Part shown: piece by piece, positions 52,350 through 62,878 of the stretch | Numbering within the stretch: position 1 is the stretch's first letter | Layout of the letters: each line of letters begins with the position of its first letter | IMG/VR virus record: IMGVR_UViG_3300032665_000026 | Span: 1-63,423 of that record | From: a virus | Reading direction: 5' to 3' (one strand) | Length of the DNA: 63,423 nucleotides | Translations under genes and position numbers: made by a program | The notes under the pieces: generated by a model | What the model was told of the DNA's origin: nothing | Seen by the model: only the letters and a program-made list of their open reading frames with translations | Database searches by the model: none

Positions 52350-52413
52350 TAGCCATCATCGGCGGAGAGACGACTAATCCTCTCCGTACACCTCCCGGTG
52401 TTTCGGCAATTCT
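52350..52413 (-). ncRNA. Hammerhead-like ribozyme candidate 1 (variant core)
   Basis: On the minus strand, directly after the stop of the 52412-52657 gene: GAAA, stem III ACACC/GGTGT with GGGA tetraloop, UA cleavage position, and stem I CGGAGAG/CTCTCCG. Then comes a CCGATGAT core where canonical would be CUGAUGA, and a possible stem II GCC/GGC. Topology is type II (stem II open). The U4 position is C and there is one extra base, so activity is uncertain. Confidence 0.5.
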
Positions 52414-52657
52414 AACTTAACAGCTTATTAATGCTTTTGATGTGGATATTCATGTTACTTATCTGCTCTTCCATAGCTTTCAAAGCACATTCGTACAGAG
52501 CTAAAGCTGCCTCATAGACTGATATGTTAAGGCTTCCCTTGTGATTGTTATAGATCTCAAAACCCTCTAACAATTCAGTGAAGCATTTACTTACTTCGTC
52601 TAATTGATTGACCATAGACTGTACTTGCGAAATTTTGTCTTCGCCAATTACTTGCAT
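52412..52657 (-). CDS. Hypothetical helical protein
   Basis: 81 residues, helical, with Leu/Glu/Met-rich amphipathic segments (VQSMVNQLDEVSKCFTELL). Possible coiled-coil oligomer. Its stop abuts hammerhead-like element 1. Confidence 0.65.
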   Translation of the reverse strand: MQVIGEDKISQVQSMVNQLDEVSKCFTELLEGFEIYNNHKGSLNISVYEAALALYECALKAMEEQISNMNIHIKSINKLLS

Positions 52658-52675
52658 TATATGCCTTACTCTTAT

Positions 52676-52969
52676 TTAATATTCTCCATCGTACTCGTAT
52701 GAGTCGATGTATTCATATGAAGCGTCAAATGTTACTTCTTCCTCCTTTCCTGTTTTAGGGCAGATATAATAGAATGTACCTTCTCCATCACCCCAGCTAC
52801 CGCTAGTTACCCAACCACCGCTATATATACTCCCACTGCGATTGTGTGAGTAACAAGTCATAGTGATGCCTTCGATACCAGTATGTGGTTCACCACAAGG
52901 GCATTCTACATCTCTAGTAGCTTCCTCTTCAATCGGTTCTGGTTCATCATCTGGTTCGTAATATCCCAT
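52676..52969 (-). CDS. Hypothetical acidic protein, zinc-like
   Basis: 97 residues, acidic N-terminus, CPCGEPH, CYSH and YICPKTG supply a possible zinc site; Tyr/Asp/Glu-rich tail. AAAGGAG precedes the ATG. Its leader carries the AGCTAACTCC repeat element. Confidence 0.65.
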   Translation of the reverse strand: MGYYEPDDEPEPIEEEATRDVECPCGEPHTGIEGITMTCYSHNRSGSIYSGGWVTSGSWGDGEGTFYYICPKTGKEEEVTFDASYEYIDSYEYDGEY

Positions 52970-52996
52970 TGTTTCTCCTTTATTTTTATTGTTATA

Positions 52997-53021
52997 TGTG
53001 AAATGCGAGGAGTTAGCTTCC
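52997..53021 (-). repeat. Intergenic repeat element, copy 1
   Basis: TGTGAAATGCGAGGAGTTAG (plus strand reading) and flanks recur at 59507-59530 with one substitution and one indel. Here it lies immediately after the stop of the 53022-53144 gene and before the leader of the next. Likely a small RNA element of the minus transcript. Confidence 0.55.
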
Positions 53022-53144
53022 TTATAGGAAGTCTACTAGATCTCCATCAAAGCCGTAGCTTTCAAGCTCACGATACATAGAAACAGGGCTAATTTTCCCA
53101 TTGTACATGTCGCTTACTAGTTCTTCTACCTGTTCATCATCCAT
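53022..53144 (-). CDS. Small acidic protein
   Basis: 40 residues (MDDEQVEELVSDMYNG...), ATG at 53144 behind AAAGGA. Helical, acidic. Sits just downstream of the best hammerhead candidate. Confidence 0.6.
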   Translation of the reverse strand: MDDEQVEELVSDMYNGKISPVSMYRELESYGFDGDLVDFL

Positions 53145-53161
53145 GATGTATCCTTTATTTA

Positions 53162-53227
53162 ACCTATCTCATCAGTCCATAGGCGGTCAACCCTATGAAT
53201 ACGCCTCCCGGCGTTTCGATTCATTAA
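53162..53227 (-). ncRNA. Hammerhead ribozyme candidate 2 (canonical core)
   Basis: Minus strand, starting at the stop codon of the upstream gene. It reads GAAA, stem III ACGCC/GGCGT with a GGGA (GNRA) tetraloop, GUA cleavage triplet, stem I TTCATAGG/CCTATGGA (8 bp, one G-U), and the complete core CUGAUGA. Stem II is GAT/ATC, extended by TTAA/TTAA across a 3x3 internal loop. All universally conserved hammerhead positions are present in type II topology. Cleavage would separate the two flanking cistrons. Confidence 0.78.
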
Positions 53228-53377
53228 TTAATACTCAGCACAGCCACAGTCATAGCCATTGGCAAAATTGCTGCAGCAGTAACTTACTTGCACTACTTGT
53301 CCAGAGGCATTGCGCATATAACCATCTGGTAATGTATCATCATATACATCTGAATCAAATTGGATTGTGTAAGTCAT
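53228..53377 (-). CDS. Small Cys-containing protein
   Basis: 49 residues: MTYTIQFDSDVYDD..., ending YCCSNFANGYDCGCAEY with five cysteines, likely metal-binding or disulfide-containing. GGAG precedes ATG 53377. A longer opposite-strand frame here is a shadow. Confidence 0.6.
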   Translation of the reverse strand: MTYTIQFDSDVYDDTLPDGYMRNASGQVVQVSYCCSNFANGYDCGCAEY

Positions 53378-53380
53378 AGC

Positions 53381-53509
53381 TTACATCTCCTTAACTATTA
53401 GTTCAATTACTCTGTCGAGAGTATCCGATTGACCGCACTTATAGGGATCATCTCCCAACTCAAACGGATAAAACTTCATGATCTTTTCGATCAGCTCATT
53501 TTTATTCAT
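53381..53509 (-). CDS. Small hypothetical protein
   Basis: 42 residues (MNKNELIEKIMKF...), helical. ATG 53509 overlaps the previous stop by four bases; its own stop is followed three bases later by the next start. Confidence 0.55.
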   Translation of the reverse strand: MNKNELIEKIMKFYPFELGDDPYKCGQSDTLDRVIELIVKEM

Positions 53510-53736
53510 GACACTTCTTTCCAGTTGTTGTTGTTTAATTGATCTAATGTGTCTTGGAACTCGTACAATATATCCCTCTCAGTCTCACCAGTTTCTGTGA
53601 AAGGATCAGCAAATACCCACTCGTTTAAGTTAGGTACAAAAACGTTCTTACCTTTATCAAAACGGGCAAGAGTTGTTTCCCAATCTATGTACCAACCTTT
53701 ACTCTCAGACCACGTTACCACGTAATGATATTCCAT
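53506..53736 (-). CDS. Hypothetical protein
   Basis: 76 residues, Trp-rich strands (VVTWSESKGWYIDWETT) then an acidic helix. Part of the tightly packed small-gene cluster. No family recognised. Confidence 0.65.
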   Translation of the reverse strand: MEYHYVVTWSESKGWYIDWETTLARFDKGKNVFVPNLNEWVFADPFTETGETERDILYEFQDTLDQLNNNNWKEVS

Positions 53737-53741
53737 TATAC

Positions 53742-53885
53742 TTATTCTCCTACTTCTGTATCTGTCAAGAAACCGTAGACACGTTTAAGATTATGGATAG
53801 CACGTTCTACGCTGCCATCTTTCTCTGAATCATTGATAGCCCATTTAGTTAGGCTAATTGCTGCCTCTAGTGTCTCTGGATCCAT
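53742..53885 (-). CDS. Small hypothetical protein
   Basis: 47 residues from ATG 53885, which overlaps the preceding stop (TAATG) and has GAGGAAGAG upstream; a longer in-frame extension to 53951 would overlap the neighbour. Helical (LEAAISLTKWAIND). Confidence 0.6.
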   Translation of the reverse strand: MDPETLEAAISLTKWAINDSEKDGSVERAIHNLKRVYGFLTDTEVGE

Positions 53886-54091
53886 TACTCTTCCTCCTTG
53901 TTTCCGGTTACTGTGTAACCTTTCTCTACTACGAACCAATCGTCGTTCCAACCGTCAATCCAGTCGGGGCTTGATTCATCTGGCTCAGGGTGGTTGACGT
54001 ACAACCAACCCCACCCTTCCTCAAAACTATCAAACTCAATACCATCAAACAGGATGTTGTTCATCCAGTCGCGGATAAGGTACTTACTCAT
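53885..54091 (-). CDS. Hypothetical Trp/Asp-rich protein
   Basis: 68 residues rich in Trp and acidic residues (EEGWGWLYVNHPEPDESSPDW...). AGGAAACAATG start. Such Trp/Asp-rich small proteins recur in this cluster (compare 54568-54759). Confidence 0.65.
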   Translation of the reverse strand: MSKYLIRDWMNNILFDGIEFDSFEEGWGWLYVNHPEPDESSPDWIDGWNDDWFVVEKGYTVTGNKEEE

Positions 54092-54100
54092 TGTTTCCTC

Positions 54101-54289
54101 CTAAGTATGTGTGCAACATGAACTACAGTCACCACAGTCACCACAACGACCATCACGACTAGCTAATTCATATTCTCTACCACAGGTGTCACACTCACCC
54201 ATCTCACTACATATGGGGCATAAACCATTGCAATGCTGACAATAGTTTTCATATACAGTAGGTCCATGATCACATGGTTCACATATCAT
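54101..54289 (-). CDS. Cys-rich zinc-finger protein
   Basis: 62 residues with 13 cysteines in CxxC pairs (CEPCDHG, CQHCNGLCPIC, CDTCGRE, CGDCGDCSSCC). Probably binds two or three zinc ions; the layout is rubredoxin/zinc-ribbon-like. Role unknown. Confidence 0.7.
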   Translation of the reverse strand: MICEPCDHGPTVYENYCQHCNGLCPICSEMGECDTCGREYELASRDGRCGDCGDCSSCCTHT

Positions 54290-54299
54290 AACTTACTCC

Positions 54300-54455
54300 T
54301 TACTTGATTGGGAACTCATTGAGGAATGTTTCAAAGACTGATGCCCGAGCTTTGTCCAGCTCATTGTTTAACTCATCGAGATCATCTTGATCTAAATCAG
54401 TGAAATCAATCTCTTCAAACCATTCTTCTAGGTTATCTTTAGTTACTTCATCCAT
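54300..54455 (-). CDS. Small acidic protein
   Basis: 51 residues (MDEVTKDNLEEWFEEIDF...), strongly acidic helical. ATG overlaps the upstream stop (TAATG). Confidence 0.6.
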   Translation of the reverse strand: MDEVTKDNLEEWFEEIDFTDLDQDDLDELNNELDKARASVFETFLNEFPIK

Positions 54456-54568
54456 TATACTCCCCAGCATTCATCACATGTACCATCATCACATTCGTCA
54501 CATGGGTGCTTTAATGGAGTATCTAACTCCATACCGCATGTTAAACAAATAGGATATTTCTTACTCAC
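54455..54568 (-). CDS. Small Cys-rich protein
   Basis: 37 residues starting at GTG 54568 (TAGTG overlap). CLTCGME and CDECDDGTCDECW form a compact four-to-six-Cys zinc site. Overlaps both neighbours. Confidence 0.55.
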   Translation of the reverse strand: MSKKYPICLTCGMELDTPLKHPCDECDDGTCDECWGV

Positions 54569-54759
54569 TATGCTTCCTCTCCTGTGTTTACGATAGCCCA
54601 ATCATCCCAATCGATGTTGTCCCACCAGAAGTCAGACTCTAATTGCTTATCTATCAGTTGCTGACCATCCAACCACTGATTTAGTTTCTCGGTTGCTTCT
54701 TCGGGGCTGCTTGCTACAACAGCAACGTCCATAGAAACTTTTGTGTAATACTCTTTCAT
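54568..54759 (-). CDS. Hypothetical protein
   Basis: 63 residues: N-terminal strand (YYTKVSMDVAVVASSPEEATEKL) typical of small phage alpha/beta proteins, then Trp/Asp-rich tail (FWWDNIDWDDW). No known family. Confidence 0.65.
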   Translation of the reverse strand: MKEYYTKVSMDVAVVASSPEEATEKLNQWLDGQQLIDKQLESDFWWDNIDWDDWAIVNTGEEA

Positions 54760-54762
54760 TGC

Positions 54763-54888
54763 TTACTCCTCTAACATATTTATTACTTCATTGAGCTGTT
54801 CACATCGATCCAACAATTTAGCAATAACTTTCATTGCTTCTGCTAAGTTAGTTGGAGTCTCGATGCCATAATCAAACAGTAACATCAT
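54763..54888 (-). CDS. Small helical protein
   Basis: 41 residues (MMLLFDYGIETPTNLAEAM...), start inside the end of the whiB-like gene (17-base overlap). Coiled-coil-like C-terminus. Confidence 0.5.
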   Translation of the reverse strand: MMLLFDYGIETPTNLAEAMKVIAKLLDRCEQLNEVINMLEE

Positions 54889-55141
54889 ACTTGCTACCTT
54901 TCTTTGGCATTCCTTTGACTGCCCTACGCTGTAGCTGTGTCATACCACCGAAGATACCAACGACCACGTTGTTATCAATGGCGTACTTTAGGCATTCCTG
55001 TTGCACTATGCAATTGTCACAGTATACCTTAGCTGCATCCATCTTTATTTTTATTTCTCTTGGTAACATTCTACCTTCAAAGAAAAACACATCAGTGTCT
55101 ACACCGATGCAATTGGCATCATCACGCCAGTTCTGATTCAT
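54872..55141 (-). CDS. Second WhiB-family iron-sulfur regulator
   Basis: 89 residues. The four cysteines appear in order: ANCIG, then CDNCIVQQEC (CxxC and C). VVVGIFGGMTQLQRR takes the place of the usual G-[VI]-W-G-G signature, with Phe replacing Trp. Shorter than the copy at 10814. WhiB proteins bind a 4Fe-4S cluster and sigma region 4. It may control this strand's transcription. Confidence 0.82.
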   Translation of the reverse strand: MNQNWRDDANCIGVDTDVFFFEGRMLPREIKIKMDAAKVYCDNCIVQQECLKYAIDNNVVVGIFGGMTQLQRRAVKGMPKKGSKYDVTV

Positions 55142-55311
55142 TTTATCTCCTCTACCTCATCTACTTCCATTTCATGACCATCGATGAGGAATGCATGGCC
55201 GTTTGCCCACACATCTTCTGCCCATGCTTCAGGAGTATAGCCCTTAGGCATGTCTTCTTCGGTGAATTCATAATAGTATTCAACCGTAGCAATGGCTGTA
55301 TACTTTTTCAT
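55138..55311 (-). CDS. Small hypothetical protein
   Basis: 57 residues (start at ATG 55311 with AAGGGGGT upstream; 55314 also possible). Starts with a strand (KKYTAIATVEYYYEF) and ends acidic. Overlaps neighbours by a few bases. Confidence 0.6.
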   Translation of the reverse strand: MKKYTAIATVEYYYEFTEEDMPKGYTPEAWAEDVWANGHAFLIDGHEMEVDEVEEIK

Positions 55312-55700
55312 CATACCCCCTTAAATAAACTGATGAATTCATCAAACGTCACTGGATCAGTTGCAGTCCACTTGATAGTTTCTTGGTAGTGTTCTATGCT
55401 GATGTCTGAGTAATCAACTTCTTTAATCACAACAGTCCTATCTACATGGTTAACTACAACAATACGCCATACGTCATCATGCTCTGATAGACCAATGCCA
55501 TAGCCAGTTTCACCCATTACTTCACCGAAAATCATCTCTGAGAAGATGATACGGTTGAGATACTCATCATCACCCCAACGACCTTTCCCACGCCCTAGAG
55601 CATTAGCTACAGTCATAGGAAGATAATCAGCACCCCAATGGGTATACAAAAACACTGAACCCTCAGCACTAACCAATTCTACCTGTCCACGGTCTCCCAT
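55311..55700 (-). CDS. Hypothetical protein
   Basis: 129 residues, mixed alpha/beta, with YTHWGADYLP, a phrase found in a widespread family of small phage proteins of unknown function. Preceded by tRNA-like element 1 and the leader AAACAAGCAAGGAG. Confidence 0.7.
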   Translation of the reverse strand: MGDRGQVELVSAEGSVFLYTHWGADYLPMTVANALGRGKGRWGDDEYLNRIIFSEMIFGEVMGETGYGIGLSEHDDVWRIVVVNHVDRTVVIKEVDYSDISIEHYQETIKWTATDPVTFDEFISLFKGV

Positions 55701-55733
55701 GTTATTCTCCTTGCTTGTTTAACCTCATTATGA

Positions 55734-55794
55734 GGAGCACCCTAAGCTAGATTCGAACTAGCATACATCACCACCAATTGGCTAGGGATACCTT
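55734..55794 (-). ncRNA. tRNA-like acceptor/T-arm element 1
   Basis: On the minus strand, two bases after the upstream stop: ATCCCTA pairs with TTAGGGT (7 bp), and inside it GCTAG/CTAGC closes a T-loop TTCGAAT. A 20-base linker with TTGGTGG, like a D-loop, replaces the D and anticodon arms. The 3' side ends GCTCC, not CCA. Conserved with element 2, with compensatory changes in both stems. May be an RNase P/Z substrate or translation-control element. Confidence 0.7.
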
Positions 55795-55796
55795 AA

Positions 55797-56345
55797 CTAC
55801 CAGCTACTTACGTAATAAACGTCGTGACCTTTATTAATTGCTTCTCGTGCTTCCAAGATAAGTTCCAGGTCTTCATTGTAGTAATATGAATCTGAATTCT
55901 CACCAAAGAAAAATCCTGAAGTTGAAGGTAATGTACCAAGGCGTACATGCATTTCTAACTGGTCCAAGTCACCAACATTTAACCTCAACGGTTGGTTGTT
56001 AAAGATTCGAGACTTGTGTAAATTAGCAGCCATCGAAGCATACTGCTCTTGTCGAATGATAGCTTTCATAGCTTCTTCAGATGTTACCATCTCAAGCATC
56101 TCTGGGGTAACTTCTGACTTATCGACTACACCAACCATGTGAGCAACAACTTCAGTAAGAAACCTTTTATCTCCTTCAAAGCCTTGCGCGTTTGCTTTGC
56201 TATTGAATAGATCTTCCATCCATCCTTCAAGGTTGGGGTGCTTACGACGATAAGCTAACTCAAATGTATCAGCATCTTCTGAGTACATAAAGTCAGTGTT
56301 ATCTTCATGACGTTCAACCATGAATACGTACTGGTCTAAACCCAT
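55797..56345 (-). CDS. Conserved phage protein
   Basis: 182 residues. Begins MGLDQYVF and contains RKHPNLEGWMEDL and, near the C-terminus, LPSTSGFFFG...YYYNEDLELILEA. The GFFFG/YY phrases define a widespread tailed-phage protein family, often annotated without a verified function. It is flanked on both sides by tRNA-like elements. Confidence 0.72.
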   Translation of the reverse strand: MGLDQYVFMVERHEDNTDFMYSEDADTFELAYRRKHPNLEGWMEDLFNSKANAQGFEGDKRFLTEVVAHMVGVVDKSEVTPEMLEMVTSEEAMKAIIRQEQYASMAANLHKSRIFNNQPLRLNVGDLDQLEMHVRLGTLPSTSGFFFGENSDSYYYNEDLELILEAREAINKGHDVYYVSSW

Positions 56346-56382
56346 AATCTTACTCCTTGTTTAACTTACTATTCCCTACTTG

Positions 56383-56440
56383 GGAGCGTCCTAAGATGGG
56401 ATCGAACCATCATACATCATCACCAGATTAGGACCACCTT
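56383..56440 (-). ncRNA. tRNA-like acceptor/T-arm element 2
   Basis: Minus strand, right after the stop of the 56442-56849 gene. GTCCTAA pairs perfectly with TTAGGAC, and inside, GATGG/CCATC closes T-loop TTCGATC. The linker TCTGGTGATGATGTAT replaces D and anticodon arms. AAGGT before and GCTCC after match element 1. Multiple stem positions covary between the two copies. Confidence 0.72.
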
Positions 56441-56441
56441 A

Positions 56442-56849
56442 CTACTCTACATCAGGGAACAACGACCTAAGGTAACTACCATCTAAGATAGAAGACGTTG
56501 CTGCTTTTGCTGCTTCAATGATTTCTGCAGCTTTTTCTAGGCTATCAATCGCTAGAGTGTTGCCTTCATCATCAATGCCACCAGTGATAATGATATCACC
56601 GACAATCATATCAGTCATGCCATACTCGTGAATCCATAGAGCAGTCCCGAATACGTTCATGCGTGGGTTCTCAACGAGCTTTCCTTCGTCATCGATCCAC
56701 AGATCAATACCGAGTGAATCGATACTTACGCATTGGATCAAGCCACCACCAGTGGCTGCTTTCAGTTGCTTGTATGAATTTGCCTCATCAAAGTCAACGA
56801 TTGCAATCTCATTGGTAGCTGCATCAGAAGTGATTGCATACTTTCCCAT
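56442..56849 (-). CDS. Hypothetical protein
   Basis: 135 residues, mixed alpha/beta, C-terminal helix EKAAEIIEAAKAATSS. No family recognised. The leader contains pseudoknot copy 2 and AAACAAGTAAGGGG. Confidence 0.68.
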   Translation of the reverse strand: MGKYAITSDAATNEIAIVDFDEANSYKQLKAATGGGLIQCVSIDSLGIDLWIDDEGKLVENPRMNVFGTALWIHEYGMTDMIVGDIIITGGIDDEGNTLAIDSLEKAAEIIEAAKAATSSILDGSYLRSLFPDVE

Positions 56850-56880
56850 TATATTCCCCTTACTTGTTTGGTTTATTTGA

Positions 56881-56910
56881 GTGGGCAGTTTAATGACATA
56901 CCCAGGTCAT
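56881..56910 (-). ncRNA. Pseudoknot motif, copy 2
   Basis: On the minus strand: stem ATGAC/GTCAT encloses loop CTGGGTAT; after linker TAAAC, TGCCCA pairs with TGGGTA of the loop (6 bp with one wobble). It lies between the stop of the 56921 gene and the leader of the next gene. Confidence 0.65.
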
Positions 56911-56920
56911 ACTAACTTAA

Positions 56921-57634
56921 CTACTTAGGGAAAACAATTTCAATTTGCTTACCATTAATAGTAATGAACTGCGGTGCAGCAGGTACATCTGGTTCTACTG
57001 GTGCTACTGATACAGGTTCTAACACTGGATTAATTGCTTCAATAACGTCTCCGATACTATCAAACATCATACTAAAGCCTGGAATATCTGCTTTGTCTCC
57101 ACCGAAATCCCATGCGCTTGTGTCAATGGTGAATGAGGTATCAATCATTGGTTCGGGTTCTACTTCTGCTACAACAGTAGTTGGTGCATCTTCAGTAACA
57201 CTGGAGGTAGTTTCAACCGTTGTAGGAATAGTAGAATATACCATACCTAGATCTGACTTCTCTTTCCAAACACCATCGATTGAGATGCAAGGATTCAAGA
57301 CAATGCCAGTCTTACCAACCTCGTACGATAGACCAAGCATACGGTAGAGAAAGTACTTACGCGCAATATCTCGATTAGTCTCAGTCTGTGCCATTTGTAG
57401 CATCGTAGCGATATTTGCCTTAGCATCTTGGTGAGTTGCATAGAACATACGCCCAATGATAGTACGTGCTCGTCCAGTTTCTTCATCGTTCTTAGAACAA
57501 CGAATATCTACTCGGGAGAAACTTGTTGGTGTCTCCTTAGTAACAGTGAACGCTAGGTCAACTATGTCGCGAGTACGACTAGAATTCCAGCACTTACCAT
57601 CTGGTTTTGGTACCCAGATAAGTTCGTTAGTCAT
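56921..57634 (-). CDS. Hypothetical protein
   Basis: 237 residues. The first 120 residues are alpha/beta with a Cys pair; the C-terminal half is a disordered Val/Thr/Glu/Pro-rich tail ending FITINGKQIEIVFPK. Possibly a DNA-binding or host-takeover protein. No family recognised. Confidence 0.65.
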   Translation of the reverse strand: MTNELIWVPKPDGKCWNSSRTRDIVDLAFTVTKETPTSFSRVDIRCSKNDEETGRARTIIGRMFYATHQDAKANIATMLQMAQTETNRDIARKYFLYRMLGLSYEVGKTGIVLNPCISIDGVWKEKSDLGMVYSTIPTTVETTSSVTEDAPTTVVAEVEPEPMIDTSFTIDTSAWDFGGDKADIPGFSMMFDSIGDVIEAINPVLEPVSVAPVEPDVPAAPQFITINGKQIEIVFPK

Positions 57635-57667
57635 CTTACTAGTTCCTTCCTTACTTGTTTATTTGAC

Positions 57668-57732
57668 CTCTTCATTCAGCCGGTGGTGGTCAATCCACCG
57701 AGAGTCCTCCCGGACTTTCTGTTCTTATTACT
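57668..57732 (-). ncRNA. Hammerhead-like ribozyme candidate 3
   Basis: Minus strand after the stop of the 57733-57915 gene: GAAA, stem III AGTCC/GGACT with GGGA loop, UC cleavage position, stem I TCGGTGG/CCACCGG. The loop ATTGACCA shares TTGACC with candidate 2. Then CUGAAUGA, the core with one inserted A. No clear stem II pairing, so this may be degraded. Confidence 0.45.
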
Positions 57733-57915
57733 TTAATCTTTAACTCTTGGTGTGCAAAGGCCATCCATAATGAGTCCTTCTGCCATGCGACCGTAATGAC
57801 CTTGAAGACTCCAAGCCATTCCAGTGTCAATCAAGTACTGAAACAGTTCAATTGTTTCCTCTCCATTCAAACTGCCCTGTTCGTAGTCAATAATATTAGA
57901 TAGTGTATCGTACAT
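57733..57915 (-). CDS. Conserved small phage protein
   Basis: 60 residues. IIDYEQGSLNGEETIELFQYLIDTGMAWSLQGHYGRMA is a highly recurrent phrase in tailed-phage genomes, function unknown. AAAGGAGAAT precedes the ATG. Confidence 0.75.
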   Translation of the reverse strand: MYDTLSNIIDYEQGSLNGEETIELFQYLIDTGMAWSLQGHYGRMAEGLIMDGLCTPRVKD

Positions 57916-62803: not shown

Positions 62804-62808
62804 TATCG

Positions 62809-62878
62809 CACTGCAGATGGGAATCGAACCCACAATCTTCTAGCTGAACTAGACGCTCTACCATTGAGCCACTGCAGT
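62809..62878 (-). tRNA. tRNA with UCA anticodon (opal-reading; Trp-like)
   Basis: Minus strand cloverleaf, 70 bases. Acceptor ACTGCAG/CTGCAGT pairs fully, D-stem GCTC/GAGC, T-arm GTGGG/CCCAT with TTCGATT loop. The anticodon loop GTTCAGC gives anticodon TCA, which pairs with UGA. A1-U72 and discriminator G73 match bacterial tRNA-Trp identity. The anticodon stem is only 4 bp and the loop could fold as 5 bases. CCA not encoded. Confidence 0.6.

Follow-up and report, generated by a model that had tools for sequence, protein, structure and literature searches.

Type II hammerhead ribozymes with a pseudoknot (Rfam RF02276) have been found in multiple copies flanking phage genes, and their cleavage has been tested (Perreault et al. 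2011, PMC3088659). The clustered phage copies were proposed to process long transcripts, and tandem sets were shown to cleave (PMC3088659). Here we describe three elements of this kind in the IMG/VR virus record IMGVR_UViG_3300032665_000026, all 63,423 bases of which were analysed and are called the window below. They share with RF02276 the permuted order, the open stem II, the pseudoknot and the clustering between phage genes, but the Rfam model does not score them, and two have deviant cores: copy 2 has a C at position 4 (U4C), and copy 3 has an A after A6 and no standard stem II pair. We put at a little over 80% the probability that the copies are intercistronic, self-cleaving, mRNA-processing type II hammerheads whose core deviations are maintained, and probably slow cleavage, rather than being signs of decay. 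This reading is built on the observed fold, covariation, pseudoknot, orthology at fixed sites and recurrence of the variants.

The haloviral HHphage of HF1 and HF2 is a further parallel: this hammerhead with a variant core precedes a phage gene by a few nucleotides, and a transcript 5' end was mapped within three nucleotides of its cleavage site (PMC3088659). It differs in that its insertion, examined as an adaptation to high salt, adjoins C3 and stem I (PMC3088659). Self-cleaving elements between phage genes are best regarded as a known kind, here with recurrent core variants. The hammerhead core has been regarded as almost invariant, and database models embody that view; searches based on the consensus miss members. 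A phage group in which most copies deviate, always at tolerated positions and with the structure kept, amounts to a natural mutational scan of one of the best-studied small ribozymes. With it, the reason why phages put self-cleaving RNAs between genes becomes open to experiment, as does the question whether the cleavage rate is tuned.

Three probable type II hammerheads in the window

The preliminary description had reported a hammerhead-like architecture recurring in two further spacers, at 52350-52413 and 57668-57732, and had inferred a family of ribozymes between cistrons. A blind scan of the window used a descriptor that runs from GAAA through hairpin III with a GGGA loop, UH, hairpin I with an 8-base loop and a hammerhead-like core to a short stem II. 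It gave exactly three matches, all on the minus strand, at 53217, 52404 and 57719 (copies 1, 2 and 3), with none on the plus strand of the window and none when the whole window was shuffled 150 times with dinucleotides preserved and both strands scanned. A stop codon lies 7-13 nt ahead of each ribozyme, and from the end of its core to the next start codon there are 24-37 nt. Both the recurrence, on the minus strand, and the family between cistrons are borne out. The parts are as follows.

53156..53223, minus strand: copy 1, same family with a canonical core, by fold, pseudoknot and model score
53175-53169, minus strand: core CTGATGA of copy 1; stem II is ATC/GAT, 3 bp
Within copy 1, minus strand: stem III CGCC-GGGA-GGCG; predicted cleavage 53200/53199; pseudoknot TTGACC:GGTTAA
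52343..52410, minus strand: copy 2, type II hammerhead with a U4C core, by fold, pseudoknot and model score
52404-52401 and 52400-52389, minus strand: GAAA and stem III CACC-GGGA-GGTG of copy 2
52387/52386, minus strand: predicted cleavage of copy 2, with U16.1-A17
52386-52379 / 52370-52363, minus strand: stem I of copy 2, CGGAGAGG/TCTCTCCG, with loop ATTAGTCG
52362-52356, minus strand: core of copy 2, CCGATGA (CCGAUGA, U4C), then a bulged U at 52355
52407-52405 with 52354-52352, minus strand: stem II of copy 2, GCC paired with GGC, 3 bp behind the bulged U
52376-52372 with 52349-52345, minus strand: pseudoknot of copy 2, TAGTC:GACTA
57659..57725, minus strand: copy 3, type II hammerhead whose core has an extra A behind A6 and whose stem II lacks a standard pair
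57719-57716 and 57715-57704, minus strand: GAAA and stem III GTCC-GGGA-GGAC of copy 3
57702/57701, minus strand: predicted cleavage of copy 3, with U16.1-C17
57701-57695 / 57686-57680, minus strand: stem I of copy 3, TCGGTGG/CCACCGG
57679-57672, minus strand: core of copy 3, CTGAATGA (RNA CUGAAUGA), A inserted after A6, at 57676-57675
57693-57688 with 57668-57663, minus strand: pseudoknot of copy 3, TTGACC:GGTCAA
52412..52657, minus strand: gene upstream of copy 2, its stop codon 7 nt before GAAA
51633..52328, minus strand: gene downstream of copy 2, 231 aa, DUF2786/DUF7168
57733..57915, minus strand: gene upstream of copy 3, 60 aa, DUF7417, its stop codon 13 nt before GAAA
56921..57634, minus strand: gene downstream of copy 3, 237 aa

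All three copies show the type II order (GAAA, III, UH, I, CUGANGA-like core): loops close stems I and III, stem II is open, and all carry GAAA and A15.1-U16.1 followed by H17. The strict core CUGANGA occurs in copy 1 and is replaced by CCGAUGA in copy 2 and by CUGAAUGA in copy 3. Two core defects had been claimed for copy 2, a replaced U4 and an extra base. The replacement stands; the extra base is an ordinary bulge before stem II, and as such a base separates core and stem II in 25 of 70 parsed copies, U4C is the only true core change in copy 2. The inserted A and missing stem II noted for copy 3 are confirmed: there is no G-C pair at the stem II base. A stem II with G10.1-C11.1 is formed by 3 bp in copies 1 and 2 and is absent from copy 3 and its orthologue in L039 (L numbers denote other stretches). 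We class copies 2 and 3 as homologues with variant cores and not as members of the consensus, because their orthologues in L044 and L039 have CUGANGA and the deviations are documented natural variants.

A pseudoknot between loop I and the 3' tail is common, not obligatory, in type II hammerheads. In all three copies the loop of stem I can pair with the tail that immediately follows stem II, a feature overlooked before. This pairing explains why the loop TTGACC is common to the copies at 53217 and 57719. The sharing noted earlier holds for these two and not for the copy at 52404, with its different loop. Over 64 copies, loop-tail complementarity exceeds that of re-dealt loop/tail pairs (z ~7), and for the phage group of the window none of 5000 shuffles was as high. 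Perreault et al. 2011 (PMC3088659) reported this pseudoknot in type II hammerheads.

Stems I and III vary in a compensated manner in related phages. Among 20 distinct sequences 93.6% of cells are paired, against 65.2% when shuffled and 35-41% when slid, and 80 cells are changed on both sides, against 24 when shuffled. The covariation also holds on 73 distinct sequences, although their alignment was fitted to the resulting model and leans to structure. Rfam made no hammerhead call in the window at gathering or relaxed thresholds, and its Hammerhead_II model detects none of the three copies. The model derived here gives 73.4, 67.2 and 59.9 bits for copies 1, 2 and 3, scores that are not independent, as all three were in the training set; copies outside that set (L044 12874, L042 10214 and L036 4747, 2880 and 2065) score 36.8-67.4 bits. 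As to placement, a stop codon closely precedes 64 of 67 copies (median 8 nt), and all 67 are followed by an open reading frame (ORF) start (median 28 nt after the core), with a ribosome-binding-like motif in 64.

Orthologous sites in related phages

The phage is known only from metagenome sequence. Its record carries phage structural and replication genes and is possibly an incomplete genome; to the right of ~51.4 kb the genes are oriented on the minus strand. No DNA similarity to isolated phages was found for the window, and single-protein scans with its own DUF2786 and 237-aa proteins found no relatives. Alignments of orthologous proteins retrieved syntenic relatives. A DNA-pattern scan for hairpin III with a canonical core returned 26 viral stretches, most with paired stems before a start codon; the matches in L010, L014, L017, L030, L032 and L033 have unpaired stems and were judged chance on inspection.

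The site of copy 2 lies between the 52412-52657 gene and the DUF2786 gene. A hammerhead stands in front of the DUF2786 gene in six of nine distinct lineages, the window included, and is absent from the site in the other three (L054, L055/L056 and L057). The core is CTGATGA in L044/L048, CCGATGA in the window, L042/L049 and L051/L036, which are three lineages, TTGACAA (C3U with G8A) in L035/L053 and TTGACGA in L058. Among these orthologues the stems have been rewritten yet remain paired. A tree of seven concatenated proteins (FastTree) places the window beside L051 and L053, and L042/L049 beside L044/L048, so U4C arose more than once, or it is old and has been lost. Under either history U4C survived the rewriting of the stems. 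Mycobacteriophage Piro94 has no spacer here that could hold a ribozyme, its DUF2786 gene directly adjoining the neighbouring gene.

At the site of copy 3, the orthologues of the downstream gene in L005/L039, L042 and L044 are likewise preceded by a hammerhead. The core is CTGATGA in L039, L040 and L041, with the same weak stem II as in the window, and L042 and L044 carry GAUAA in place of GAAA; in L051 and L035 the site has no hammerhead. Conservation of the core deviations, an early proposal for a check, is thus seen for U4C, in three lineages at one site, and not for the insertion of copy 3, which its orthologues lack. In L057 (770-905) and L058 (260-396) the spacer at this site keeps a TTGACC / GGTCAA-like loop-tail pair and has lost GAAA and the core; it is probably a hammerhead relic.

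The ribozymes had also been thought to be spreading between cistrons, which is partly upheld. Copy 2 has its best matches at the orthologous site (83% with L042 and L051, against 68% with copy 1), and copy 3 matches its L039 orthologue best (86%), as expected of copies inherited vertically at their sites, whereas the best match of copy 1 (88%) is an L044 ribozyme from another site. The sites are therefore inherited and occasionally re-seeded. Elsewhere, among the roughly ten type II hammerheads of L025 (IMGVR_UViG_2518285562_000001), many share a near-identical stem I, core and tail and differ in hairpin III, which suggests a recent spread of copies within one genome. Streptomyces phage Paedore (L009; NC_054671.1, 40885-52743) has about 13 type II hammerheads on the sense strand, roughly one per spacer over some 9 kb, and related Streptomyces phages such as R4 are ~88% identical to it in that region. 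Paedore offers a culturable system with such ribozymes.

Recurrence of the core variants

A dedicated U4C pattern replaced the combined pattern CYGAWKRW, which missed most U4C copies because it demands A or T after the core. It gave 45 viral matches, 31 of them complete hammerheads (stem III paired, stem I of 5 bp or more), and in bacterial genomes two of three matches were complete. The 31 amount to about 22 distinct viral sequences; the comparison was with the open-licence literature, and earlier reports of a common phage U4C are possible. With A inserted after A6 there were four viral matches, all complete, two of which (L124 and L125) are distinguished by a compensated stem I pair. The counts for both variants are raw, uncorrected for a background of lethal core changes (e.g. 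at G5 or A6), so that any excess of U4C over other substitutions is provisional. When the U4C and A-insertion set was tested for the pseudoknot, one of 3000 shuffles was as high.

The natural core variants of PMC3088659 (A6a, U13a, C3U/G8A and U15.1-A16.1), with the viroid U4C cited there, are the same five kinds as occur in the phage group of the window. The GAUAA insertion (U13a in PMC3088659) is found in four copies (L042 10214 and 11052; L044 12874 and 13538), C3U together with G8A in three, and C3U alone in L058. U15.1-A16.1 replaces A-U in L036 copies 4747 and 2880, and L040 1305 appears, by eye, to carry it too. Such variants were described as rare in PMC3088659, whereas in the phage group of the window 14 of 19 copies have a non-canonical core. 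In other phages the figure is 2 of 36 secondary copies, i.e. those not selected by the pattern. The Fisher p of ~2.5e-7 comes from a tally by hand and is optimistic, since copies within one genome are not independent. In the well-parsed copies no change was found at G5, A6, A9, G12, A13 or A14.

Proposed mechanism and competing explanations

The ribozymes are oriented in sense, each following a stop codon and preceding the next ribosome-binding site, and would be transcribed as part of polycistronic phage mRNA. Each is expected to cleave that RNA at a point between hairpins III and I. The cut would yield an upstream mRNA that terminates in a hairpin carrying a 2',3'-cyclic phosphate and a downstream mRNA whose first hairpin carries the 5'-OH and stands a short way ahead of the ribosome-binding site. 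Because the type II permutation would leave a hairpin at both new ends, both mRNAs could be protected. Cleavage, its slower rate in the variants and an effect on mRNA processing or stability are what we infer from the structures and their conservation.

Several points weigh against this account. U4C, although it supports the infectivity of a viroid, considerably lowers in vitro activity; low activity was likewise found when a natural hammerhead with an insertion after A6 was assayed (PMC3088659). The absence of the copy 2 ribozyme from three lineages indicates that it is not essential, and the energy model gives modest stability only (z ~ -1.5). For copy 3 there is a competing alternative fold in the energy model, and with no standard base pair at the bottom of stem II and no insertion in its orthologues, a recent loss or an assembly error in this contig is possible. 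It is for copy 3, on these three grounds, that slow rather than dead is the least certain. A rival view is that copies 2 and 3 are decayed and do not cleave, leaving copy 1 alone active. In its favour, their core residues deviate from the consensus, the copy 3 orthologues have canonical CUGANGA, the published U4C and after-A6 insertion variants are slow, and the copy 3 spacer in L057/L058 does look degenerate. We nevertheless consider decay unlikely. U4C persists in three lineages with pairing kept in rewritten stems I and III, each deviation turns up again in unrelated phages, within complete folds that have the pseudoknot, and G5, A6, A9, G12, A13 and A14 are unchanged in the well-parsed copies, as expected from selection on catalysis and not from decay. 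The recurrence of the same core breaks in many unrelated phages, in intact co-evolving structures, argues for maintained variants and not dead copies, and the slow or low activity reported for the two changes in PMC3088659 makes copies 2 and 3 more likely slow than dead. The preliminary description had left the cores as decayed or variant; the second term fits, and decay finds no support as the main explanation.

It is very improbable that the spacers act simply as paired hairpins, in mRNA end protection, RNase III-type processing or translation control, with catalysis irrelevant. Two adjacent stable hairpins just before ribosome-binding sites would suit such a role, but a double hairpin would not require the single-stranded core, the C3-G8 and 15.1-16.1 pairs and the pseudoknot, all of which are kept or compensated. 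Chance resemblance or conserved coding sequence is hardly worth entertaining. An antisense ORF (57456-57743, plus strand) in the mechanical ORF list does overlap copy 3, but the shuffles gave no match, and we regard this explanation as already refuted by the covariation of the stems; the orthologous spacers, placed between stop and start codons, differ by indels, which is not the conservation in a coding frame that had been named in advance as the refuting case.

Beyond the maintained, self-cleaving copies of this phage group, phages may keep a large overlooked class of non-consensus type II hammerheads in which cleavage is deliberately slow or conditional, an idea we hold only tentatively. 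Its members might include U4C above all, and also A after A6, U13a, C3U/G8A and U15.1-A16.1. If the idea is true, the ratio of cut to uncut polycistronic mRNA would be set spacer by spacer.

Two minor observations concern other parts of the window. Just before the gene at 52676-52969, the segment 52967-53048 (minus strand) weakly resembles a preQ1-II riboswitch (23.7 bits against a cut-off of 47), probably by chance. ARAGORN calls a tRNA with anticodon TCA, labelled SeC, at 62808-62878 (minus strand), which could read UGA.

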